Made by a program: the position numbers and the translations under genes. A DNA stretch of 64,000 nucleotides from Novipirellula galeiformis (lineage in GTDB: Bacteria; Planctomycetota; Planctomycetia; Pirellulales; Pirellulaceae), in NCBI RefSeq assembly GCF_007860095.1, contig NZ_SJPT01000002.1:1-64000 (forward strand), in the 5' to 3' direction. The notes below the pieces were generated by a model. It was not told where the DNA came from. It ran no database searches and worked only from the letters and a program-made list of their open reading frames with translations. This document shows, piece by piece, positions 2,660 to 63,480 of this stretch (position 1 is the stretch's first letter; each line of letters starts with the position of its first letter).

Positions 2660-5600
2660 TCAATCCAGCTGCTTGCCCACACAGCTGCGAAGCCAGACGT
2701 AGTAGTCGCGGGTGGAGATAATGCCATCGCCGTCGAAGTCGAAGGCGGAGTCATAGCCGGCCATTCCGGCACGGGCTCCAAATTGGACTTTGGTGCGATC
2801 GAACCAGGTGGCTCGGTCGGAGATGCCGACAATCGCGTCGCCATCAAAGTCGCCGCTCAGTTGATGGAAATGGTAGCGGTAGACTCCGTCATCGGTTCCA
2901 TCGGAGTCCACAAAACTTGCATCGATCGTGTCGTGGATACGCAGTTCGTACCGACCATCGGCCAGGATCGATTGGGTGCCTCCCGCAGTCAAATCGATCA
3001 GCAATCGGCTCGTCGCCATATCCCAGCGGAACTGGTCAGCGGTCAACGCGACGTTGGTGCTAAATCCAGCTCCGGTATGGAGTGAGATCGCACTCAGGAT
3101 CTGACCGCTGTCGATCATGCTTTGCGCGTCGAAGTCGCGATCGAACTGAATGGCTAACTGAGTCGTGTTGCTGCGCTGCAGGGCTCCGTCATTAACCGTC
3201 ACACCGGACACCGACAGCGGGTCCGCTGCGAGGTTGACGTTTAGGCTGAATGTGGTGCGCGAAGTGATTCCGAAGCTATCGGTGGCCGTGATCGTGACCG
3301 TTTGACTCTCATCGGTCGTGTCGTTGGTATTGAAGGACCAAGACCAGGTTCCACTGCCATCGTCAGCTTGTGTGACGGTCCCGATCGAAGCCGACAGGCT
3401 CACGACATCGCCAACGGAATCCGAGAAGGTGATGGTATTGCTGGCGACGTCGCCTTGGTCGACCGTCAGCTCCGAGAGTTCGACGGCAACCACAGGCGGT
3501 AAGTTCGTGACATCAAAGTGGGCGATTCGCGTGGCGACTTCGACGTCATCGACTCGAACCGAATAACGGAAGCTGGCGGAACCGAGTTCAGCGGCAACGA
3601 AACGGACGGTATGGTCGTCACTTAGGATTTCGGCTTCGCCGTTGACCGCTTCCGTGATAACGAACGTCGGATCGGTCAGTTCTAGATCAGCAACCAGCGA
3701 CAGCAAGTCGAGGTCCCGCTCGCCAGCAACGAGGCTATCGAAAACATTGTCGGCGAGGTAGCTGACCAATCCCGCATCTTGCCGCTCCAAATGGTCAGTG
3801 ATCTCCGCTTCGATTTCAAATTCCGAAACGATCGGGACTTCATCGATCTGGAACGTGTTACCGATCGCCGACAACGAATGGGGACCAGCGTTGTCAATCA
3901 GATCGCCATCGCCATGAATGATGATCGTGTTTCCACCGGGATCATCGGCAGTCCCCAGATCAACCTTTCCGCCGGTGACCTGAATGGCTGGCCGATCAGC
4001 CGTCGTCGTTTCTTCGATCCTGCTGTTGCGTAGCGTCAAGCTTCCGCCCTGGACGAGGATGGTGGGAGCGTCGGTGGCATTGGTGAAGGTGAAACCCTCG
4101 ACGATCAGATTTCCGGATTCCAGCGTCAGTGCGGGCGAAGCACCCACCCAGGTTGGCCCGTTAGAACCGTTGATGCGAACGGTGATACCGGCTGGCAGTT
4201 TGATGGTTTCGCCGCTGTACACGCCTGCCGTCAGGTTGATGGATATTTCTAGCGTCTCTCCGACATTCAGGTTTTCGAGTTGGGTAATAGCCTGAAGCGT
4301 GGAGGTCAGTTTTTCCGGATCAGACGCGATGGTGAGGATCGGCTCCTTTTCATCTGTTGCTTCCTTGACCCAGTCCTTCAAGCCAGCGGAAAGGCTAGAC
4401 AGGTCAAGACTGGCACCAAACGGATTCACCCCATCCCGGCCAAAAACCACATAACTTTGACCAGCCTGACCATCGGCGTAGTATGCTCCGATGATCAGAT
4501 CGTCAATTCCGTCGTTGTTGACATCACCAGCACCGCTGACGGAATATCCTGAGAAGTCACCTGAATCAAAGCCGTAGATCACGAACCCATTGCTGCCGTC
4601 CAGAGAATTCAGTTCGACGCTGGCAGCAAACGGATGTTCCTCATCTCGACCAAAAATCACATAACTTTCACCAGCATCAGATTGACCATTGCCAGACCCA
4701 TTGGCGGAATATGCTCCGATGATTAGGTCGTCGATTCCGTCGTTGTTAATGTCACCAGCCCTGCTGACGGAAATGCCTGAATGGTCGCTTGAATCAATGC
4801 CGTGAATTGCGAAACCACTGCTACCGTTCAGGGAGCTCAGGCTGACGCTGGCGGCAAACGGGACCTCCGCGTTCCGGCCAAAAATCACGTAACTTTCACC
4901 AGCAGCAGACTGGCCATTCCCTGCCCCATCGGCGTAGTATGCTCCGATGATCAGGTCGTCGATTCCGTCGTTGTTAATGTCACCAGCGCCGCTGACAGAA
5001 ATGCCTGAAGAGTCGTCTGAATCAATGCCGTGGATTACGAAACCATTGCTGCCGTCCAGTAAACTCAGGTCGATGCTGGCGGCAAACGGATCCTCCGCGT
5101 CCCGGCCAAAAATTACGTAACTTTCACCAGCATTAGACTGGCCATTACCTGACCCATTGGCAAGGAATGCTCCGATGACGAGGTCGCTGATTCCGTCGCC
5201 GTTAACATCACCCGCACCGCTAACGGAGATGCCTGAACTGTCGCCTGAATCAACACCGTGGATCACGAAGCCATTGCTGCCGTCCAGAGAACTCAGGTCA
5301 ACGCTGGCACCAAACGGATCCTCCGCGTTCCGGCCAAAAATAACGTAACTTTCACCAGCACCAGACTGGCCATTGCCAGCGCTGCCGGCAATATATGCTC
5401 CGATGATCAAGTCGTCAGTTCCGTCGTTGTTGATGTCACCCGCACCGCTAACGGAGATGCCTGAACGGTCGTTTGAATCAATGCCGTGGATCACGAAGCC
5501 ATTGCTGCCGTCCAGAGAACTCAGGTCAACGCTGGCAGTAAACGGAGCCACCGCCTTTCGGCCAAAAATCACATAACTTTCACCTACCTGGCCATTGGCG

Positions 5601-8600
5601 TTGGGGGCTCCGATGACTAGGTCAACAATTCCGTCGTTGTTAACGTCACCAGCACCGCTGACGGAAAAACCAGAAGAGCCGCTCGAATCAATGCCGTGAA
5701 TCACGAAACCATTACTGCCGTCAAGGGAACTCAGGTCGACGCTGGTGGTAAACGGATCCTCCGCGTGCCTGCCAAAAACCACATAGCTTTCACCAACATT
5801 GGATCGGCTATTATCAATCCCATCGGCGTAGGGGGCTCCGATGACCAAGTCATCAATTCCGTCGCTGTTCACGTCGCCAGCGCTGCTGACGGAATAACCT
5901 GAACTGTCAACTGAATCAACACCGTGGATCACAAAGCCACCGGTGTCGAGAATCGTCCCGATTCCCTCACTGCGGGTGATCGCGGCATTTCCAGTGACTC
6001 CACTCAGTCTCACCACAAACGTCTCGTTCGTTTCAGCATAGGTGTCTCCTTGAGCGATTACAGTAATTGTCTTGGTGGATTCACCGTCCAAAAATGTGAG
6101 TGTGTCCGCGACTGGCAGATAGTCGGAGTTATCCACAGTGGCCGTTCCGTCTACCGTCTGATAGTCAACACTGACCTCTCCCACCAGCGAGCCACTACGT
6201 GTCACGGTGAATACAAATGGAGTTGGTCCCACCGCACCTTCGACTTTGCTAACGTTGCCAATCGTCAAAAGACTGGAACGAATCGAGACGATATGGTCTT
6301 CGACTTCGCCATCACTGGCAAACCCGGTCGGTACGGAGGCGGCTTGTATGTCAGTGCTCAGACGGAATCGGGCGTACGTCGTGCCATTGAAACCGACGGG
6401 TACCATCGGGAAGTCCAATTCGACCGTCGTCGATTCGGGATCCGGGTTAACCGAATGCTGGGCGGAAAGATCGAACGTCCCGTCGCCGTTGGAGTCGATC
6501 CAGCCGTACAGCATTGCCGGTTTCGCGGTTCGATTGGTTACCACCACCGTTACGGTGGGGCTCGTACCTCCAATAAACGTCAACGAGCCAAACGCATCCT
6601 CGTCATCCGCCAATTCTCCGTGAAAGAGGTCACCAGTAACATCATCTGAGTTGGCTTGGCTGCCGGGATTCGCGGTGAACTCGCCGTCAACGAATTTACC
6701 GATGAAGATATCTTGGTCGATTTGGTGTGATGGCCCGCTGTCACTTATGGACGTGTTGTAGTTGCCAGGTCCCGTGCCGGGGCCGGTATCTGGGGCATCA
6801 CCGTAGTCCCTGCTGAGCAAACTCGCGAGGTATTCTCCGCCCGCACCGTCATTGGACAGCAATCGGAGGATGGTCATCGTCGAGTCCGAACTGCCCGCCA
6901 ATAGAATGCGATCGAATTCATCCACGAACACACCACCGATCGATTCCGAAGTGCTGCCGAGGTCGATGATTTTTTTGCCGCCGTCGCCGAACGCTTCGTC
7001 GAGGGTGCCGTCAGAGTTGATGCGGGCAACCGCGAAGTCCGAAACACCATCCGACGGTGAAAAGGTGTAGCCGCCGACGATCACGCGATTGGAACTGTCG
7101 ACCGCGATACTCTGTGCGCTATCAGCATCGCCACCGAAGTCAATGGATAGCTTGCCGTCGTCGTCAAAGCTGACATCAAGCGAGCCGTCGGGGTTAAGCC
7201 ACGCGATAGCAACGTCGGTTTGAGCAGCCGAATAGTCGTAGTAATAGCCACTGATGACGATTCGTCCAAATCGATCGATCGTGACTGCCGATGGCACATC
7301 CGAGCTGTTTCGATTGGCGTCCACGATATTGATGGTTTGAATCCCATCGCCGCCAAATCCAGTGTCGAGTTGGCCGGTGTTGAGATATCGAGCTGCCGCA
7401 AAATCGCTGTTAACTGTGCCCACGATCACAATGTTATCGTTCTGATCGACCGCTAAATCCGTGGGGTGGAACGCAAGCTCGACGTATTGACCGGAACCGA
7501 ATGTCGAATCAAGAGTTCCTGAGGCTGTCAACCGTGTCAGGATTTTAGCATTTCCGGAAGTGCCGGAAATCAGGATACGCCCCTGACTATCGACCGCCAT
7601 CGCGGTCGGTCTGTCACTTTGGCTGTTGAAGTCGTGGATGGACAGGCCGTTGGTGCCAAAGCTTGCATCGAGTTCACCATCAGCCGTCAGGCGATAGATG
7701 TTGAGGTTCTCTTTCGTGCCCGAGTTTAAGTTGCTCTGTCGACCATTCGTTAATAGGATGATTCGCCCTTGGTCATCAATATGGACCCCGATGGCGCGGT
7801 CTGAATTGTTGAAAGGATTCGTATCCAGTCGCACAAGACCTCGATCACCAAATCCAAGATCAAGCTGCCCGTCATCGAGATATCGAATGACCAGGACGTC
7901 ACTCGATCCTGAAGAGTGCCCGATGGCAACGATTTTTCCGTCGGGCTGATGCGAGACAATTTCTGAAGCGAATCCGTTCGAATACGGACTTCCAATGTCG
8001 GTGGTGAGCTTGCCATCACGACTGAAAGTGCTGTCAAAGTCTCCATTGTTGGTCAGCCGCGCAACGGCAAAGTCAGAAGTCCCCGTTCCTGCAACCAGGA
8101 TATTGCCGACCGGATCGATCGCCAAAAAGCCTCCAAAGTCGCGTTCGTTACCAAAGTCAACAATCTGGACCCCGTCGTCGTCAAAGGTATCGTCAAGTTC
8201 TCCCGAAACGGCAAGTCGGATCACCGCAATGTCCTCGCGCTGTCCGGACTCTTGAGTTTGGGCTGCAATCAGGATGCGGTCGCTGCCATCGATCGCCAGG
8301 CCATAGGTAAATTCCTGCTGTGAAAAGATGTCGACGATATGTTTTCCATCGTCTGAGAAATTCGTGTCGAGTACTCCGCCATTCGTCAATCGGGCGACGG
8401 CAATGTCTGTCCCGGATTCGCCACCTTGAAAGGATCGTCCAGTGACGACAATTCGCCCCAAACTGTCGATGGCGACAGAGCCTGGATAATCGCCCTTGTT
8501 ATCGAAGTCGATTGTCTGGATACCGTCGCTGTCGAAAGTATCGTCGAGTACTCCGTCCTTTGTCAGACGAATCACCGCCAGATCACGTTGGCTACTCGAT

Positions 8601-22314: not shown

Positions 22315-23089
22315 GGTGAGTCGTATCGGCGTTGGAGGAGAAGGGGGAATGCAATCCCTTTATCGGAGATGCACTTGATGTGCCGATCGGGAGCCGAGCT
22401 TTTGCCAAGCTCGGACATCTAAGAGCTCGGCGTCGAACAAGCTCGGCGTCGAACGATTCAGCCAAGCGGTTTCGCTTGTCGACCTCGTGAACACGTTAGC
22501 GAGCTCATCCAAACCGATGCCTGATGCGTGCATAGCATCGAGCAATCGCGTTTCAGCCGACGTAGCCGCGTCGATGGTTCGCGTTACGCGAACGCAGGCG
22601 CCGTTCTTGTCCGCGCACTTGTGCGTCGCCCCTCATCGTGGAGATCGCCTCAACGATCGTTCGCTGACGCAGGCACCTCGGTTGCTTATCCACCAAGTTG
22701 GTCGCACGGGGACCAGAGAGCCGGAGACCAGAGCAGCGGGAGGGACAGAGAGCCGGGGACAGAGCAGCGGGAGTGCCGGGGACAGTGATCGCACGGAAAT
22801 CCGCTGAGCGTTGAGATCTCAATTGGGCTGGCGGACATCAGGTTTTGATATTTTTTAACCTCCCATTTTCTAACCGTCTCATCCGGTGCCCCGCATCGGT
22901 GGCACGCCCGCAGCAAAATGCTCTGTCCCCAAGCACTCGCCGCAAAATGCTCTGTCCCCAAGCACTATATTCACTGTCCCCAAGCAATTCATCGGGGAAT
23001 GCGTCGGAAATGATTGCCCACGAATCACGCGAATCCGCGCGAATCGACTTTTGCTGGGTGACACCAATTAAATTCGTAATGAAACGATT
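22315..23089. repeat. Repeat-rich intergenic region: GGGGACAGAGCA family copy 1
   Basis: From 22778 (GGGGACAGTGATCGCACGG) to about 22990 lies a copy of a ~150-210 bp repeat. Its other copies are at 25845-26004 and 26301-26460, with a diverged one at 25123-25262. It contains the conserved stretch TAACCTCCCATTTTCTAACC and ends in repeated TGCTCTGTCCCCAAGCA words. Upstream, GGGACAGAG and GACCAGAGAGCCGG words form a degenerate run (about 22715-22780). No coding capacity is evident, apart from a minus-strand open frame (22360-22545) that I cannot assign. Confidence 0.65.
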
Positions 23090-26300: not shown

Positions 26301-26512
26301 GGGGACAGTGATTGCACGGAAATCCGCTGAGCGTTTGAGATATCAAATGGGCTGGCGGACATCAGGTTTTGATATTTTTTAACCTCCCATTTTCTAACCG
26401 TCTCATCCGGTGCCCCGCATCGGTGCCGCGCCCGCAGCAAAATGCTCTGTCCCCCAGCTCTCGTCCCCCAGCTCTCACCAACCACTGTCCCCAAGCACGG
26501 TCCCCAAGCATG
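26301..26512 (+). repeat. GGGGACAGAGCA family copy 3
   Basis: GGGGACAGTGATTGCACGG to CAGCAAAATGCTCTGTCCCC, closely matching copies 1 and 2, followed by extra words CTCTCGTCCCCCAGCTC, CACTGTCCCCAAGCAC and GGTCCCCAAGCATG. It runs up to the stop codon of the sialidase-like gene. Confidence 0.8.
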
Positions 26513-27679: not shown

Positions 27680-28452
27680 CGGGTAACTCCAGTTGGCTTG
27701 GGGGCGACCTACGCAACGCGTCTGAATCGAAGGCGATCCTTCCGCGATCGGTATGGGGCAAAACAAATGCCCTCCTCAAAAAGAGGCTGGATAACGAACA
27801 CCGCAAGAAACCGACGTTTCATGTTCGGCTAGCTTTCACTGACACGTCTCGCCATCAAGAATCGAATCGAGCAATGGACGCAAGATAGAGTACTCAAGAT
27901 CATACCGGGACCAAGGAAGGACCTACCAGAGGGACGTCGAATCTTTCCGCTGCCACGCATTCAGAAAATGGCAGGCAAAAAATTAGCTCGCAAAACCAGG
28001 CAAATCGACTTCGCAGGCGCGCCGCGAATTGAAGGAAACGCGGTTCGATTCAATTTCCACGAGGACGATCCCGTCTCAACGTGGACCCTCGACGTCCAAA
28101 CGTGCGATAGGCCATTTCTCAGCAGCCCAAGGCTAAAAAAATATCCAACTCCGCAGGATGAATCGCTGACCGGGTCCCACTTCGAAGTCGATCCCCTAGC
28201 AACATGCTCTGTCCCCAGGCAACTGTCGATCCCCGAGCAACATGCTCTGTCCCCAGGCAACTCGTCCCCAGGCAACTCGATCCCCGAGCAACATGCTCTG
28301 TCCCCAGGCAACTACAAACAGTTTCGAGAACGAAGTTTTGAGATGCCTGTGGCATCAACTTTGCATTGTCGATGTAGTCGCGATTGCCACAACCGCACGG
28401 TTAGAAAATCGCGGCTGAGACAACTCAAGTTACGCTTTCAAAGGAAATCCTC
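27680..28452. repeat. Intergenic DNA with TGCTCTGTCCCCAGGCAAC repeats
   Basis: Between 28196 and 28315 the words AACATGCTCTGTCCCCAGGC and CAACTCGATCCCCGAGCAAC recur three or four times in tandem, related to the GGGGACAGAGCA family. A plus-strand open frame (27968 onward, beginning MAGKKLARKTRQIDFAG) runs into this repeat; it has no upstream ribosome site or known domain and I do not call it a gene. Nothing else is seen. Confidence 0.6.
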
Positions 28453-41861: not shown

Positions 41862-41908
41862 TCAGTCTTCAGGTTTCAGACTTCAGGCATTAGGAAAGGA
41901 AAGCATGC
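41862..41908 (+). repeat. Heptamer DNA repeats 5' of a four-helix-bundle pseudogene
   Basis: CTTCAGG-TTTCAGA-CTTCAGG-CATTAGG is four 7-bp units in phase, directly before the ATG at 41909. Matching heptamers (CTGAAGT-CTGGCTC-CTGAAGC-CTGAGCA) overlap and follow the gene's 3' end (42256-42283). Confidence 0.65.
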
Positions 41909-42273
41909 ATGCGAGACTACAGGAAACTGCGAGCGTTTGAGTCGGCCGATCAACTGGCTATTGCTGTCTACAATTGCACATCAACGTTTCCCAAAGAGGA
42001 AATGTTTGGGCTAGGCTAAGCTCACAGCTTCGCCGCGCTGCCGTTTCCGGTCCATCAATCATCGTTGAAGGAAACGCTAAATGATCACAAGCCGACTATG
42101 TTCGCTTTCTCCAAATCGCTTACGGTTCGGTTTGCGACGTTGAGTACCAGCTTTCGCTAGCACAAGGACTCTCCTACCTCGAAGAAAAGGTCGCTGCCAA
42201 CGTGATTTCGGTCGCCAACGAAACTGGACGCGTCCTCAACCGTTTGCTGCGTTCCCTGAAGTCTGGCTCCTGA
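41909..42273 (+). pseudogene. Four-helix-bundle (IVP/S23-like) protein, frameshifted
   Basis: ATG at 41909 opens MRDYRKLRAFESADQLAIAV, then FPKEEMFGLG and a stop. A frame change near 42016 restores the family sequence: LSSQLRRAAVSGPSIIVEGN, a TGA near 42082, then SQADYVRFLQIAYGSVCDVE and LLRSLKSGS to the stop at 42271-42273. The same order of motifs (DHRKLRAFELAD; FPKDEMFGLTSQLRRASVSI; EPDFLRFLDMAFGSIREVEY; LAGLIRSLRSS) is seen in the copies at 60-62 kb, so this is an older, decayed member of the family. One frameshift and one nonsense codon make it inactive. Seven-bp repeats border both ends. Confidence 0.75.
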
Positions 42274-42284
42274 AGCCTGAGCAA

Positions 42285-42356
42285 GCGCCCCATGGGAGCC
42301 GAACCGACACTTCCGTCATGGCAAGGCGAGCACGCTACCCGCTACCTCAGGGGCGC
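42285..42356 (-). tRNA. tRNA-Gly(GCC)-like sequence, degenerate
   Basis: On the minus strand 72 nt can be folded with a perfect 7-bp acceptor stem (GCGCCCC / GGGGCGC). The anticodon-loop-like sequence TTGCCAT has GCC in the anticodon position, with one mismatch in its stem. The T-arm has four of five pairs and loop TTCGGCT. The D-arm is poor, A58 is missing and no CCA is encoded, so it is probably a tRNA pseudogene. Its 3' end lies about 10 bp from the 3' end of the four-helix-bundle pseudogene (tail-to-tail). Confidence 0.4.
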
Positions 42357-59746: not shown

Positions 59747-59818
59747 GGGCTGGTAGCTGAGACGGTCTAGCGGCGGTCTGAAGAACCGCAGACGAGGATT
59801 CACACTTCACCCATCTTA
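59747..59818 (+). tRNA. tRNA-Phe(GAA)-like fragment with degraded 3' half
   Basis: The 5' half is tRNA-like: GGGCTGG, T8-A9, D-arm GCTG..AGACGGTC..TAGC with G18-G19, anticodon stem GCGGT/ACCGC and loop CTGAAGA (anticodon GAA). The T-arm and 3' acceptor strand mispair and are made of TTCACAC-TTCACCC-ATCTTAC-TTCAAAC heptamers. It looks like a tRNA cut by heptamer DNA. Confidence 0.35.
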
Positions 59819-59836
59819 CTTCAAACTTCCTAAATT
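59797..59836 (+). repeat. Heptamer DNA repeats
   Basis: GATTCACACTTCACCCATCT then TACTTCAAACTTCCTAA reads as 7-bp units TTCACAC, TTCACCC, ATCTTAC, TTCAAAC, TTCCTAA. They lie between the two tRNA-like sequences. Confidence 0.55.
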
Positions 59837-59909
59837 GTTCTCGGAGTGTGCCGGATTCGCACGCGACTTTGCGAAGGTCGTAGACCAGGTTCGATTCCTG
59901 GCGAGAGCA
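59837..59909 (+). tRNA. tRNA-Arg(GCG)-like gene
   Basis: A full cloverleaf can be drawn. Acceptor GTTCTCG/CGAGAGC has one G-U. D-stem GTGT/GCAC has loop GCCGGATTC. Anticodon stem CGACT/GGTCG has loop TTGCGAA (anticodon GCG at 59871-59873). T-arm CCAGG-TTCGATT-CCTGG is perfect, with discriminator A and no encoded CCA. Conserved T8, A14 and A21 are absent, so it is either an unusual accessory tRNA or a recent pseudogene. A GCG anticodon is unusual because bacteria normally read CGC with ICG. Its 3' end faces the 3' end of the first four-helix-bundle gene across heptamer repeats. Confidence 0.5.
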
Positions 59910-59914
59910 CTTTG

Positions 59915-59963
59915 GAGTCGTGAGGGATGAGTCCTGAGGGATGAGTTCTGAGGGATGAGGGGA
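59915..59963 (+). repeat. Heptamer repeats at the 3' end of four-helix-bundle copy 1
   Basis: Seven units in phase: GAGTCGT, GAGGGAT, GAGTCCT, GAGGGAT, GAGTTCT, GAGGGAT, GAGGGGA, ending exactly at the gene's stop codon. Confidence 0.9.
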
Positions 59964-60323
59964 TCAGGACGACGAGCGAAGTGAGCGGATGAGCCCAGCG
60001 AGCACCCTTGCTGTTTCATCCGCTTGGCTTGCAAGTTGTTCGGCGGTCTCGCCGGTCGTGTATTCGAGCCGCCGTGCGATTGTCAGCTGATACTCGACCT
60101 CGCGAATGGATCCGAATGCCATGTCGAGGAAACGCAGGAAATCTGGTTCAGAGTTCCGAGCGCAACCTTCGACGATGTTGGAGGCGATTGATACGGATGC
60201 TCGGCGAAGTTGCGACGTCAGACCGAACATTTCATCCTTCGGGAATGTCCTTGTTGCTGAGTAAATCAACATGACAAGTTCATCTGCCAACTCGAACGCT
60301 CGTAGCTTTCGATGATCTCGCAT
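59964..60323 (-). CDS. Four-helix-bundle (IVP/S23-like) protein, copy 1
   Basis: 119 residues from the ATG at 60323, which has AGGGGGAAG just upstream. The sequence MRDHRKLRAFELADELVMLI, FPKDEMFGLTSQLRRASVSI, ASNIVEGCARNSEPDFLRFL, DMAFGSIREVEYQLTIARRL and ETARVLAGLIRSLRS forms four amphipathic helices. This is the 'four helix bundle protein' family (23S rRNA intervening-sequence protein, TIGR02436-like), structurally related to Avd of diversity-generating retroelements. Its function outside 23S rRNA is unknown. Heptamer DNA repeats border both ends (59915-59963 and 60340-60483). Confidence 0.85.
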   Translation of the reverse strand: MRDHRKLRAFELADELVMLIYSATRTFPKDEMFGLTSQLRRASVSIASNIVEGCARNSEPDFLRFLDMAFGSIREVEYQLTIARRLEYTTGETAEQLASQADETARVLAGLIRSLRSSS

Positions 60324-60339
60324 AACTTCCCCCTTCTTC

Positions 60340-60483
60340 CTCACACCTCACACCTCACACCTCACACCTCACACCTCACACCTCACAACTCACACCTCAC
60401 AACTCACAACTCACAACTCAAGACTCAAGACTCAAGACTCAAGACTCAAGACTCAAGACTCAATACTCAAGACTCAAGACTCA
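60340..60483. repeat. Long heptamer satellite
   Basis: About 20 head-to-tail 7-bp units changing gradually from CACACCT through ACTCACA to ACTCAAG. A similar run of 20 ACTCAAG-type units is at 62250-62386; the equivalent spot of copy 2 (61348-61383) has only about five. The number of units therefore differs between the three tandem copies. Confidence 0.95.
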
Positions 60484-60493
60484 CCCCTATCTT

Positions 60494-60564
60494 AACGCTG
60501 AAGCCAGATGGCCAAGCAACCGGCCCCAACTCGGTTGAAGTGGGGGCAAATCCTACCAGCGATT
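60494..60564 (+). tRNA. tRNA-Trp(CCA)-like sequence, degenerate, copy 1
   Basis: 71 nt with acceptor AACGCTG/CAGCGAT (one mismatch), anticodon stem ACCGG/TCGGT with loop CCCCAAC (CCA in place) and T-arm GTGGG/CCTAC with loop GGCAAAT. AGCAACCGG followed by a CCA loop is characteristic of tRNA-Trp. The D-arm is shortened, T33 is C and T54-T55 are lost, so it is probably not functional. Confidence 0.35.
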
Positions 60565-60702
60565 CTGACTGATCGACTGCAGGCTCGGGTTACATCTTGA
60601 AAAGGTGAACCATCTGAAGTGTCCCTTCGTTGGTCCGCTTTTGCACAACCTCAACACTTTCACACTCATACTGGAGCAGACCAATGCGACACGACAACCA
60701 AC

Positions 60703-60900
60703 ATGACTGCGACGAAGACCTTTGCTTTCGAGCCGATGAGCAAACGTCGTAAGGGCTACCCGTCGGAAACGAAAGTTAAACGCGGAGTCCGAATCATCCA
60801 AGGCAAACAACTCGAGGAAAAGCTCGGGCGCAACGACCTTTGCCCTTGTGGCAGCGGCCAGCGATTCAAGCGTTGCTGCCTACGATCGGGGCGTCTGTGA
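60703..60900 (+). CDS. SEC-C motif small protein, copy 1
   Basis: 65 residues from ATG 60703 ([20 protein letters not shown]); an earlier start at 60619 lacks support. A basic N-terminus is followed by the SEC-C zinc motif [18 protein letters not shown] (C-x-C...CC) at the C-terminus, the same metal-binding motif found at the end of SecA and in many small proteins that bind partner proteins. A near-identical copy lies at 61603-61800; both stand between a tRNA-Trp-like sequence and a four-helix-bundle gene, so the whole block was duplicated. Confidence 0.75.
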
Positions 60901-60931
60901 TGGCGTCAATCGCGATGACTACTTTTAGGGA

Positions 60932-60968
60932 ATGAGTCGTGAGGGATGAGTCGTGAGTCGTGAGGGGA
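60932..60968 (+). repeat. Heptamer repeats at the 3' end of copy 2
   Basis: GAGTCGT, GAGGGAT, GAGTCGT, GAGTCGT, GAGGGGA in phase, ending at the stop codon of the second four-helix-bundle gene. Confidence 0.9.
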
Positions 60969-61328
60969 TCAGGACGACGAGCGAAGTGAGCGGATGAGCC
61001 CAGCGAGCACCCTTGCAGTTTCATCCGCTTGGCTTGCCAGTTGTTCGGCGGTCCCGCCGGTCGTGTATTCGAGCCGTCGTGCGATTGTCAGCTGATACTC
61101 GACCTCGCGAATGGATCCGAATGCCATGTCGAGGAAACGTAGGAAATCTGGTTCAGAGTTCCGAACGCAACCTTCGACGATGTTGGAGGCGATTGATACG
61201 GATGCTCGGCGAAGTTGCGACGTCAGACCGAACATTTCATCCTTCGGGAATGTCCTTGTTGCTGAGTAAATCAACATGACAAGTTCATCCGCCAACTCGA
61301 ACGCTCGTAGCTTTCGATGATCTCGCAT
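60969..61328 (-). CDS. Four-helix-bundle (IVP/S23-like) protein, copy 2
   Basis: 119 residues from ATG 61328 with the same AGGGGGAAG site. It differs from copy 1 by only two visible residues (GCVRNSEP for GCARNSEP; TTGGTAEQL for TTGETAEQL), so the duplication is recent. All four helices are complete and it is probably expressed. The 5' side has a short heptamer run (61348-61383), then a second tRNA-Trp-like sequence and a second SEC-C gene, which makes a ~900-1,000 bp tandem unit with copy 1. Confidence 0.85.
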   Translation of the reverse strand: MRDHRKLRAFELADELVMLIYSATRTFPKDEMFGLTSQLRRASVSIASNIVEGCVRNSEPDFLRFLDMAFGSIREVEYQLTIARRLEYTTGGTAEQLASQADETARVLAGLIRSLRSSS

Positions 61329-61393
61329 AACTTCCCCCTTCTTCCTCACAACTCACAACTCAAGACTCGAGACTCGAGACTCACCCCTATCTT

Positions 61394-61464
61394 AACGCTG
61401 AAGCCAGATTGCCAAGCAACCGGCCCCAACTCGGTCGAAGTGGGGGCGAATCCTACCAGCGATT
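61394..61464 (+). tRNA. tRNA-Trp(CCA)-like sequence, degenerate, copy 2
   Basis: Same fold as the copy at 60494, with a few substitutions (T-loop GGCGAAT is closer to the normal TTCGAAT). Shares acceptor AACGCTG/CAGCGAT, anticodon loop CCCCAAC and shortened D-arm. Confidence 0.35.
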
Positions 61465-61602
61465 CTGACTGATCGACTGCAGGGTCGGGTTACATCTTGA
61501 AAAGGTGAACCATCTGAATTGTCCCTTCGTTGGTCCGCTTTTGCACAACCTCAACACTTTCACACTCATACTGGATCAGACCAATGCGATACGACAACCA
61601 AC

Positions 61603-61800
61603 ATGACTGCGACGAAGACCTTTGCTTTCGAGCCGATGAGCAAACGTCGTAAAGGCTACCCGTCGGAAACGAAAGTCAAACGCGGAGTCCGAATCATCCA
61701 AGGCAAACAACTCGAGGAAAAGCTCGGGCGCAACGACCTGTGCCCTTGTGGCAGCGGCCAGCGATTCAAGCGTTGCTGCCTACGATCGGGGCGTCTGTGA
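61603..61800 (+). CDS. SEC-C motif small protein, copy 2
   Basis: 65 residues, apparently identical in protein sequence to the copy at 60703-60900 ([20 protein letters not shown] ... [18 protein letters not shown] ... LRSGRL), while the DNA differs at several silent positions. Silent-only differences suggest the protein sequence is kept under selection after duplication. Zinc binding through the four cysteines is expected from the motif. There is no recognised RBS; the upstream ~80 bp are also conserved between copies. Confidence 0.75.
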
Positions 61801-61830
61801 TGGCGTCAATCGCGATGACTACTTTTAGGG

Positions 61831-61868
61831 AATGAGTCCTGAGGGATGAGTCGTGAGTCGTGAGGGGA
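61831..61868 (+). repeat. Heptamer repeats at the 3' end of copy 3
   Basis: GAGTCCT, GAGGGAT, GAGTCGT, GAGTCGT, GAGGGGA in phase up to the original stop position of copy 3. Confidence 0.9.
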
Positions 61869-62227
61869 TCAGGACGACGAGCGAAGTGAGCGGATGAGCC
61901 CAGCGAGCACCCTTGCTGTTTCATCCGCTTGGCTTGCAAGTTGTTTGGCGGTCTCGCCGGTTGTGTATTCAGCCGCCGTGCGATTGTCAGCTGATACTCG
62001 ACCTCGCGAATGGATCCGAATGCCATGTCGAGGAAACGCAGGAAATCTGGTTCAGAGTTCCTCGCACATCCTTCGACGATATGGGATGCGATTGATACGG
62101 ATGCTCGGCGAAGTTGCGACGTCAGACCGAACATTTCATCCTTCGGGAATGTCCTTGTTGCTGAGTAGACCGACATAACAAGTTCATCCGCCAACTCGAA
62201 CGCTCGTAGCTTTCGATGATCTCGCAT
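61869..62227 (-). pseudogene. Four-helix-bundle protein copy 3, frameshifted
   Basis: The ATG (62227) and the first ~85 codons match copies 1 and 2 (one S/N change gives ASHIVEGCARNSEP; VMSVYSATR for VMLIYSATR). A one-base deletion near 61967 (GTATTCAGCC where the others have GTATTCGAGCC) then shifts the frame, so the last helix is read as unrelated sequence running to 61766. The restored frame would end at 61869. The copy is probably inactive. A long ACTCAAG satellite sits 5' of it. Confidence 0.8.
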
Positions 62228-62249
62228 AACTTTCCCCTTTTTCCTCCGG

Positions 62250-62386
62250 ACTCACAACTCAAGACTCAAGACTCAAGACTCACAACTCAAGACTCAAGAC
62301 TCAAGACTCAAGACTCAAGACTCAAGACTCAAGACTCAAGACTCAAGACTCAAGACTCAAGACTCAAGACTCAAGACTCAAGACTC
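62250..62386. repeat. ACTCAAG heptamer satellite
   Basis: About 19 units of ACTCAAG (a few ACTCACA) in perfect 7-bp phase, 5' of four-helix-bundle copy 3. Confidence 0.95.
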
Positions 62387-62423
62387 CCCCATAACACGAA
62401 TGACTGCCTAATTGGATTACACG

Positions 62424-62500
62424 GATGAAGTTTGAAGGGTGAGGTGTGAAGGATTGCGATTCCCGGTTTCAGACTTCTAACTTCACTCTTCAAACTTCCG
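62424..62500. repeat. Degenerate heptamer repeats
   Basis: TGAAGTT-TGAAGGG-TGAGGTG-TGAAGGA, a short gap, then TTTCAGA-CTTCTAA-CTTCACT-CTTCAAA-CTTCCGA. The two runs are roughly inverted relative to each other, as if a gene between them had been lost. Confidence 0.7.
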
Positions 62501-62662
62501 ATCGCTTTGTCAGCCGCGTTTTCAACAATCGTCTCGAGAGACTGAACTATGCGTGTTTTACATTCCTGTTTCGCCATTACGACCGGCCGCGAGTAATCAA
62601 AAACTCGCTGCCCAACAGAGAACACACATGCACAATTCATTCTTTCAACGACCAGCGGAAAC

Positions 62663-63025
62663 ATGAAAACCACAACCGAAACAAGATCCAAATCCGTGAC
62701 CACCGTCGCGGCCCGGATCGCTGGCGAAGACATCGCCAAAGGTGACTACGTCACCATCCTCAGCGAGATCATTGAGCTTCCCTCCTACTTATGGAGCTGC
62801 TCGGGCATCTCACAACCCATCGACGAACCCGTACGGACTCGCTACCTGCCGCGTGCAGTTGGCGAACCGCACAAAGTCGTCGCGGTTTGCTTGCCATTCG
62901 TTTACGCAAAGCGACCCAAGGGCAACCTGGTCGCTTTCGACACACGACAGCAACAACTTGTCCGGCTTGACCGAGACAACGGTCGTTCGCTTTGGAAACA
63001 AATGCGAAAAGCAAAAAAGAAGTAA
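62663..63025 (+). CDS. Hypothetical small protein next to the array
   Basis: 120 residues, ATG 62663 with GCGGAAAC upstream. A short basic N-terminus is followed by GEDIAKGDYVTILSEIIELP, SYLWSCSGISQPIDEPVRTR and VAVCLPFVYAKRPKGNLVAF, ending QQLVRLDRDNGRSLWKQMRK with a Lys-rich tail. The GDYV start and VAVCLPFVYAK block look like a small beta-barrel, but I do not recognise a named family. Its stop is only 26 bp from the end of a four-helix-bundle pseudogene on the other strand, separated by GTGATGG-GTGAATG-GTAAAAG heptamers. Confidence 0.7.
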   Translation: MKTTTETRSKSVTTVAARIAGEDIAKGDYVTILSEIIELPSYLWSCSGISQPIDEPVRTRYLPRAVGEPHKVVAVCLPFVYAKRPKGNLVAFDTRQQQLVRLDRDNGRSLWKQMRKAKKK

Positions 63026-63051
63026 GAAGAGTGATGGGTGAATGGTAAAAG

Positions 63052-63297
63052 TTAGTCGCGAAGCTTTTTGACGATTGAAGTCAGAATCGCGACCAGTTCG
63101 TTGCATTCATCCATCATCGGTTGGAGTCGGTCAGCTGGAACCAAATCGGTTTCAGCGATAAGGCGGAGTCAATACAGCGTCTGGCGTGCTTCTTTGCACG
63201 CGATGTTGTATGTGAGCCGGAAATCTTTTCGGCTCTGGCACGCTTGACCCTCTTCAACATTCGCACCGACTGACGTGCCCGAACGGATCGATAGCAA
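63052..63297 (-). pseudogene. Divergent four-helix-bundle protein, truncated, with stop
   Basis: The minus strand reads LLSIRSGTSVGANVEEGQAC, QSRKDFRLTYNIACKEARQT, LY, an in-frame TGA (63169-63171, where family members have Trp), LRLIAETDLVPADRLQPMMD and ECNELVAILTSIVKKLRD to a stop at 63052. The motifs GANVEEGQA.QSR.DF and EA.ETLYWL.L...LVPADR belong to another branch of the four-helix-bundle family than copies 1-3. The N-terminal helix is missing; DNA beyond 63298 is GGGGACAGCAAGCC-type repeat, which probably cut the gene. Confidence 0.75.
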
Positions 63298-63480
63298 GCC
63301 TCGGGGACAGCAAGCCTTGGGGGCAGAGCACTTTGTTGGCTGGTTTGAGGTCCACTGTGAATTGGGTCCAAGTCACACCGATTGGCAATGCCCCAGCCGT
63401 GCAAACGCCATCGCTGTCCCCAACCGGGCGTCGCTGACTTCCAATCAAGGGCTCTGTCCCTGGGGCTCAGTCCAGTGTTT
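63298..63480. repeat. GGGGACAG-type words
   Basis: TCGGGGACAGCAAGCC, TTGGGGGCAGAGCACTTTG, CGCTGTCCCCAACC and GGGCTCTGTCCCTGGGGCTC are scattered through this stretch, related to the family at 22-28 kb and bordering the truncated four-helix-bundle gene. Confidence 0.6.

Follow-up and report, generated by a model that had tools for sequence, protein, structure and literature searches.

Why do genes for a small four-helix-bundle protein, the S23/IVP family, sit directly against tandem repeats of 7 bp at several places in one stretch of a planctomycete genome? The stretch analysed here (the window) comprises 64,000 nucleotides, C2:1-64000 of a 7.4-Mb genome that presumably belongs to Pirellulaceae, and contains five genes or pseudogenes of this family (PF05635/TIGR02436; called IVP below). 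The original prediction had proposed that gene and heptamers together form a mobile element, an idea that is supported by the enrichment of the repeats over control DNA and by the presence or absence of the gene together with its repeats. The comparison also brought out a point that the earlier reading had missed, namely that the arrays on either side of a gene run in inverted orientation, each being the reverse complement of the other. In our reading, the unit is probably a free-standing mobile insertion of ~0.4-0.7 kb, in which an S23/IVP gene lies between inverted arrays that change in concert, a counterpart of the intervening sequence (IVS) of 23S rRNA. The loci of the window and their immediate neighbours are as follows.

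59837-59910, + strand: tRNA-Arg(gcg), adjoining copy 1 (ARAGORN)
59911-59963, - strand: 3' arm of copy 1, GAGTCNT/GAGGGAT heptamers read inward (TRF, sequence)
59964-60344, - strand: IVP/S23 gene copy 1, 126 aa (PF05635 E 5.4e-34; TIGR02436)
60339-60490, - strand: 5' arm of copy 1, ~21 heptamers (TGAGTCT, GTGTGAG) (TRF)
60619-60900, + strand: SEC-C motif gene, neighbour within the duplicated unit (PF02810)
60929-60968, - strand: 3' arm of copy 2 (TRF, sequence)
60969-61349, - strand: IVP/S23 gene copy 2, 126 aa, in a unit 98% identical to copy 1
61341-61390, - strand: 5' arm of copy 2, only ~6 heptamers (TRF, sequence)
61519-61800, + strand: second copy of the SEC-C motif gene, a duplicate of 60619-60900
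61829-61868, - strand: 3' arm of copy 3 (TRF, sequence)
61869-62227, - strand: IVP/S23 copy 3, with a frameshift near the 3' end; the PF05635 match stops at model position 86
62240-62392, - strand: 5' arm of copy 3, ~20 heptamers (TRF, sequence)
62426-62500, no strand: inverted heptamer hairpin without a gene, GAAGTTTGAAGGGTGAGG ... CTTCACTCTTCAAACTTC (sequence; TRF 62468-62498)
41862-41893, + strand: 5' arm of the 41.9-kb locus, CTTCAGG/TTTCAGA (TRF; lag-7 20/28)
41909-42271, + strand: IVP/S23 pseudogene with one internal TGA (L007)
42256-42283, + strand: decayed 3' arm (CTGAAGT CTGGCTC CTGAAGC CTGAGCA), inverted relative to the 5' arm (sequence; intact in relatives)
42284-42356, - strand: tRNA-Gly(gcc), neighbour (ARAGORN)
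63052-63297, - strand: IVP/S23 pseudogene fragment (L011), with weak 3' heptamers and none on the 5' side

All five genes and pseudogenes named by the original prediction exist, but those at 59964, 60969 and 61869 (PF05635 E 5e-34 to 6e-28, also matching TIGR02436) repeat in tandem a single 0.9-1.0 kb unit that comprises the IVP gene, its heptamers and a SEC-C gene, with identities of 881/900 (98%) and 356/377 (94%). Since three copies represent one triplicated unit, the window offers three independent loci rather than five, the others being the pseudogenes at 41909 and 63052. Period-7 arrays were detected by TRF on the 5' side of the three copies (60339-60483, 61345-61384 and 62249-62386) and on their 3' side (59915-59961, 60927-60964 and 61827-61864). 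As a measure of periodicity we used the best lag-7 self-match (maximum 28) per flank; it reached 18-28 in the flanks of these copies against a window mean of 11.7, and 11 of the 12 stretches in the window with a value of at least 17 lay at IVP loci. The claim that 3' heptamers accompany all five genes is clearly borne out at 60-62 kb, but the signal is weak at 63052 (19/28, with none on the 5' side) and reduced at 41909 to a conserved CTG/CTGA core instead of full heptamers (12/28); relatives of the latter at the same tRNA site (L015, L016 and L056) carry clear arms. Heptamers at the 5' ends at 41.9 and 60-62 kb, also predicted, are present both as TRF arrays and as lag-7 matches. The 5' arms of copies 1, 2 and 3 hold ~21, 6 and 20 heptamers although their units are 94-98% identical, indicating that heptamer copy number shifts quickly.

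Planctomycete loci gathered at genus, family and phylum level left 88 after removal of redundancy at 80% DNA identity, and a second, independent set of 80 loci outside Planctomycetota, 72 of them non-redundant and used for statistics, covered Bacteroidota, Clostridia, Acidobacteriota, Proteobacteria, Cyanobacteria, Chloroflexota, candidate phyla and Methanophagales archaea. The mean best lag-7 match at the planctomycete loci was 17.4 and 18.1 of 28 in the 190-bp flanks, compared with 11.7 in 1996 control windows taken from these loci; 29/88 and 34/88 flanks, against 30/1996 controls (1.5%), had values of at least 20. In the other phyla, the threshold was reached by 31/72 and 37/72 flanks and by 36/1482 controls. 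The periodicity that the original prediction expected over control DNA is thus found in both sets, and a chance or general heptamer background is rejected for both sets and for the window itself, because control windows are far less periodic.

The inversion of the arms is as general as their periodicity. Seen on the gene strand, the units upstream of copy 1 are TGAGTCT and those downstream their reverse complement, ACTCATC/CCTCAGG, and the same genome contains further inverted units such as GTGAGGA/TCCTCAC (L003), ATTGAAG/CTTCAAT (L010) and CTTCAG/CTGAAG (L007), as well as a hexamer family, GTACTC/GAGTAC (L005, L006, L008, L009 and L012); the unit is mostly 7 bp, with 6- and 8-bp units too. 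To score the arms, we reverse-complemented the downstream flank of each locus and aligned it locally with the upstream one. The mean own-arm score was 21.2 for the 88 planctomycete loci, against 10.2 (sd 3.0) for mispaired loci; 67/88 scored higher than the 95th percentile of mispaired arms, and none of 2000 permutations gave more than 11.5. Direct-orientation scores at the same loci were merely 12.8 versus 9.6. The other phyla gave 22.3 versus 10.4, and 55/72 loci there passed the 95th percentile. When read inward from either end, the units share an AG core (G 93%, A 84%; 192 units), which is also the best conserved part within imperfect arrays (0.93 versus 0.78 in the middle, the phase being taken from the first unit only). 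Units differ by 1.15 of 7 letters between the arms of one locus and by 3.27 of 7 between loci.

The tail-to-tail arrangement noted in the original prediction applies to every copy within the window, where the tRNA-Arg(gcg), tRNA-Gly(gcc) and SEC-C neighbours are genuine. It does not extend beyond it as a rule, the 3' neighbour being convergent at just 43/149 loci. The stop codons of neighbouring genes lie within the outer heptamers at 45/91.

Arrays and gene move as a unit. Between the planctomycete efflux genes B and A, the element is present in six loci and the genes are directly adjacent in others, and the element in G000 is oriented opposite to that in G001; some efflux operons are paralogous, so this comparison serves as supporting evidence. 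A second planctomycete gene pair is filled in G001 and empty in G002, of the same genus, and in G056 and G029. A protein search of plasmids for IVP returned 42 records, among which conjugative plasmids of Nostocales (Nostoc), 87-99% identical, provide filled and empty sites with sharp junctions, so that the empty orthologous sites called for by the original prediction exist both in planctomycetes and on plasmids. The plasmid insertion measures ~0.4-0.5 kb, comprises arrays plus gene and lies exactly between co-transcribed genes. Site C reads GTAATTAAC in four plasmids when empty and GTAAT[AAATCAG...TTCTTCTTT]GTAATTAAC in two plasmids when filled; at site B1, ATTCT occurs once when empty and twice when filled (N6); and site B2, on a sister plasmid and two genes off, reads TAATG...TTATG. 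At these few sites the insertion, with target duplications of ~5 bp, falls exactly on stop/start junctions and leaves both neighbour genes intact. Site A occurs in three states, empty, filled and as a gene-less remnant with related units (GGGAACA/GGGAATA), and pC052_E carries a shortened copy of the element at site C, so that gene-less and truncated derivatives exist besides complete elements. Arm units also differ among Nostoc plasmids, being GGGAACA on pC052_D and AGTCAGA or AGTCAGG on pNsp_a. Neither the planctomycete gene pair nor the Nostoc plasmids hold an array at the empty site; because arrays appear and disappear together with the gene, at precise sites, they belong to the element.

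On the Nostoc C057 plasmid p057_H (L338), a gene-less inverted AATTCAA hairpin stands between the TraM gene and the next gene, the same operon gap that holds an IVP element in other plasmids.

Unit sequences change in concert. Units lie about 1 of 7 letters apart when the proteins are >70% identical, 2.55 apart (near random) at 60-70% identity and at random distance below that, yet the arms within each locus remain matched at all of these levels, indicating that the two arms change together; the suggestion of the original prediction that heptamers are made or copied fits this rapid change of matching arms. At the site beside the SEC-C gene, both arms are TAGTCTN in G001 and TGAGTCN in G087 and G000, and G002 combines TGAGTCN at the 5' gene half with TAGTCTN at the 3' half, a recombinant as split by eye. 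Arm mismatches comprised 229 of wobble type (G-U) and 220 A-C (p 0.7), whereas the tRNA acceptor stems of the same genomes, used as a positive control, gave 64 wobble mismatches versus 0. This absence of G-U excess in the arms indicates strand-symmetric matching kept at the DNA level and not by RNA pairing, and a process acting on DNA would be what keeps the arms alike.

Elements occur in tRNA arrays, in efflux, CRISPR and conjugation operons, and as integron cassettes, and one copy lies between nrdB and nrdA. At L074-L077 (G087, G038, G086 and G001), both IVP elements and gene-less heptamer hairpins occupy the gaps in a tRNA array that counts up to ~29 genes. No IVP was found in phage records. 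An association of IVP with CRISPR has been listed (PMC10910872); association with operons such as CRISPR-Cas may reflect insertion and not function. On Anabaena sp. 90 plasmid pANA02 (L321), an IVP element at 1983-2351 separates cas6 from cas4 in a CRISPR operon of type I-D.

The hexamer subfamily (L060-L066 in G091; L005, L006 and L009 in the window's own genome) consists of near-identical dispersed copies with sharp cassette-like ends (GTTCTGGC ... CCGTTA) and an imperfect, putatively attC-like hairpin; the ends were read by eye in seven near-identical G091 copies. One such cassette (C12:183404) lies 1.6 kb from an integron integrase (C12:180843; TIGR02249, 413 bits). Judged by these features, the hexamer subfamily behaves as integron cassettes.

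The gene carried by the element is under strong purifying selection (median dN/dS 0.08, 141 pairs), and its products score well over curated cut-offs (PF05635, 117 and 112 bits versus 33.8; TIGR02436, 120 versus 24). Its nearest solved structures by sequence are PDB 2gsc (E 2.2e-37) and 2rld (E 1.2e-10), and it is related in sequence to the pentameric four-helix bundle XCC0516; a distant kinship to bAvd (PF22296 E 1e-4) and Avd (NF033474) has scores below the curated cut-offs. Among possible partners, the transposase family Y1_Tnp co-occurs with IVP (odds ratio 14.6; 9.8 at one genome per genus), and copy numbers of IVP and Y1_Tnp (PF01797) correlate across 100 family genomes (rho 0.55; 0.53 as a partial correlation on genome size), in which IVP copy number hardly correlates with that of the reverse transcriptase family RVT_1. 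A reverse transcriptase partner is rejected on co-occurrence (RVT_1 odds ratio 0.8 with IVP), and a Y1/RAYT transposase is rejected as owner of the heptamers because, despite co-occurring with IVP, its flanks differ. Y1 elements are not known to leave target duplications, and for this reason, together with the other repeats at Y1 genes, we do not name Y1 as the cutting enzyme.

We propose that the arms would serve as element ends at the level of DNA, that the S23 pentamer would most likely bind regularly spaced AG-core sites and so join both ends, and that a DNA-cutting enzyme supplied in trans would make a staggered cut. The arms might be kept alike by slippage within an array combined with copying between arms, through hairpin template switching or inversion. 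More tentatively, with the balance of probability tilting somewhat the other way, S23/IVP elements may constitute a new class of transposable element across Bacteria and Archaea, in which a 7-bp unit serves at each locus to renew both ends in concert and the four-helix-bundle ring would recognise these ends as the core of a new machinery for mobilisation. If so, the intervening sequences of rRNA would be one specialised branch and gene-less heptamer hairpins would be non-autonomous derivatives.

Several observations weigh against this account. The element encodes PF05635 only and thus lacks any recombinase, nuclease or reverse transcriptase of its own; nor was such an enzyme identified in trans. 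With a median pI of 6.8 the domain is close to neutral, which gives no support for nucleic-acid binding, so a DNA- or RNA-binding role of the S23 protein stays at the level of hypothesis. Y1 genes, the co-occurring candidates, have classical repetitive extragenic palindrome (REP) flanks and no heptamers. The duplications come from three plasmid sites only, two exact (GTAAT, ATTCT) and one with a mismatch (TAATG/TTATG). Finally, 29/56 period-7 arrays in 462 kb were remote from any IVP gene, and at least five GTGAGGA array sites in the window's own genome lack IVP (in that search a reversed-pattern control was uninformative because tandem arrays match the reversed pattern too); heptamer arrays are therefore not exclusive to IVP genes. 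One array pair in this genome (L287, C1:1306500-1312600) comprises two GTGAGGA arrays in inverted orientation, with an 8-bp GGAGACAG/GGAGACAA array after each of them, flanking a region with DnaJ-like and RNase P protein-like reading frames recognised by eye; GTGAGGA also bounds the IVP gene of L003.

The strongest competitor, in our view nevertheless unlikely, places the element at the RNA level: the arms would be complementary because a transcript stem must form for RNase III cutting, which would make insertion harmless in rRNA, tRNA or mRNA operons alike, heptamers being merely how the stem grows. The Coxiella 23S rRNA IVS, with its S23 gene, inverted repeats, variable heptamers and RNase III excision (PMC4990558), is a precedent, elements crowd tRNA arrays, and the window element folds better than shuffles (z -5.9; also z -2.5), although good folding is expected because any inverted repeat would fold so. 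Against it stand the wobble test and its tRNA control, which disfavour an RNA stem as the force keeping arms complementary, the antisense orientation of the gene to the host operon at several sites, and the ~5-bp target duplications, which an RNA stem does not explain. Rather improbable, and largely refuted, is the view that heptamer microsatellites arise everywhere and S23 genes tend to insert in them. Heptamer satellites are common in Bacteria (PMC6749651), and the arrays lacking IVP described above would agree with it; insertion into an array, however, predicts direct flanks, the flanks seen are inverted and matched, empty sites contain no array, and Y1 transposase genes in the same genomes have no heptamers. 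Insertion of the gene into a pre-existing array is rejected on the inverted flanks and the array-free empty sites.

We give an equally low probability to retro-mobility, in which an Avd-like S23 protein would escort the element RNA to a reverse transcriptase acting in trans and the 3' arm would re-prime on the 5' arm, copying heptamers and keeping the arms alike. Matched arms, variable heptamer number and the homology to bAvd and Avd would suit such a process, but RVT_1 is not associated with IVP and no reverse transcriptase was seen near elements. Very improbable as a general explanation is that IVP is ordinary integron cassette cargo, since the ends, attC-like hairpin, near-identical copies and proximity to an integrase fit the hexamer subfamily only, while heptamer loci in operons and tRNA arrays have no attC-like ends; for these loci the differing junctions refute it. 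A free-standing mobile insertion with inverted, concerted arms remains the reading we prefer.

Two kinds of unrelated repeats were also observed in the window: a tandem repeat of 228 bp in 6.5 copies, apparently coding (4470-5939), and short recurring repeats that carry GGGGACAGAGC/CTGTCCCC motifs and have no relation to the heptamers (22707-22966, 26444-26510, 28187-28313 and 63293-63326).

For ~30 years S23/IVP genes have passed as riders of rRNA without a function, and this large orphan family now gains a genomic setting and a testable role; S23 elements would also be a cause for part of the bacterial heptamer satellites, and how two inverted arrays change in concert at the DNA level becomes testable on natural plasmid pairs. 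The closest known system is the 23S rRNA IVS, regarded as selfish. In Coxiella burnetii (PMC4990558) its S23 gene lies within 28-bp terminal inverted repeats, the 5' arm contains three GACAGAT heptamers, a number that differs from strain to strain, and RNase III excises the sequence. This IVS shares with the present elements the protein family, a gene within terminal inverted repeats and tandem heptamers of variable number in the 5' arm. Unlike it, our elements stand free between genes, whether in operons for mRNA or tRNA, on plasmids or in integron cassettes, have long concerted arms with a locus-specific unit, show no sign of an RNA-pairing constraint, and at the three plasmid sites read have ~5-bp target duplications. 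We set them apart because the defining insertion in 23S rRNA fails: the window loci abut tRNA or protein genes, and no rRNA was found at 20 loci of other phyla. Avd of diversity-generating retroelements is a distant relative by sequence (PF22296, NF033474), but neither a reverse transcriptase nor a template or variable repeat accompanies our elements.

The TAACTGA heptamers of Beggiatoaceae and Cyanobacteria (PMC4679880) are likewise intergenic, tandem and found in overlapping host groups, but they form single direct arrays with a proposed regulatory role, and that paper names neither an S23 gene nor inverted pairing. Inverted heptamer arms were not found described in the open-access literature, where the Coxiella paper is the sole precedent, although an earlier account elsewhere is possible; S23 elements with inverted heptamers are widespread in Bacteria and Archaea and apparently undescribed. 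Their small size, inverted ends, gene-less copies and, at the few sites read, short target duplications resemble miniature inverted-repeat transposable elements, from which they differ in having a conserved gene under purifying selection and tandem arrays as ends. We know of no parent transposase for the S23/IVP element. By analogy, the element would best be read beside the RAYT (TnpA-REP) genes and their REP/REPIN repeats, in which a short gene also stands between inverted repeats and many gene-less paired repeats occur (PMC3116915). RAYT is an HUH nuclease with conserved REP palindromes, whereas the S23 protein lacks a nuclease fold, no Y1 (HUH) transposase lies between the repeats of the element, which encodes PF05635 alone, and its units are 7-bp tandem arrays that vary by locus and are missing from the RAYT-type genes of these genomes.

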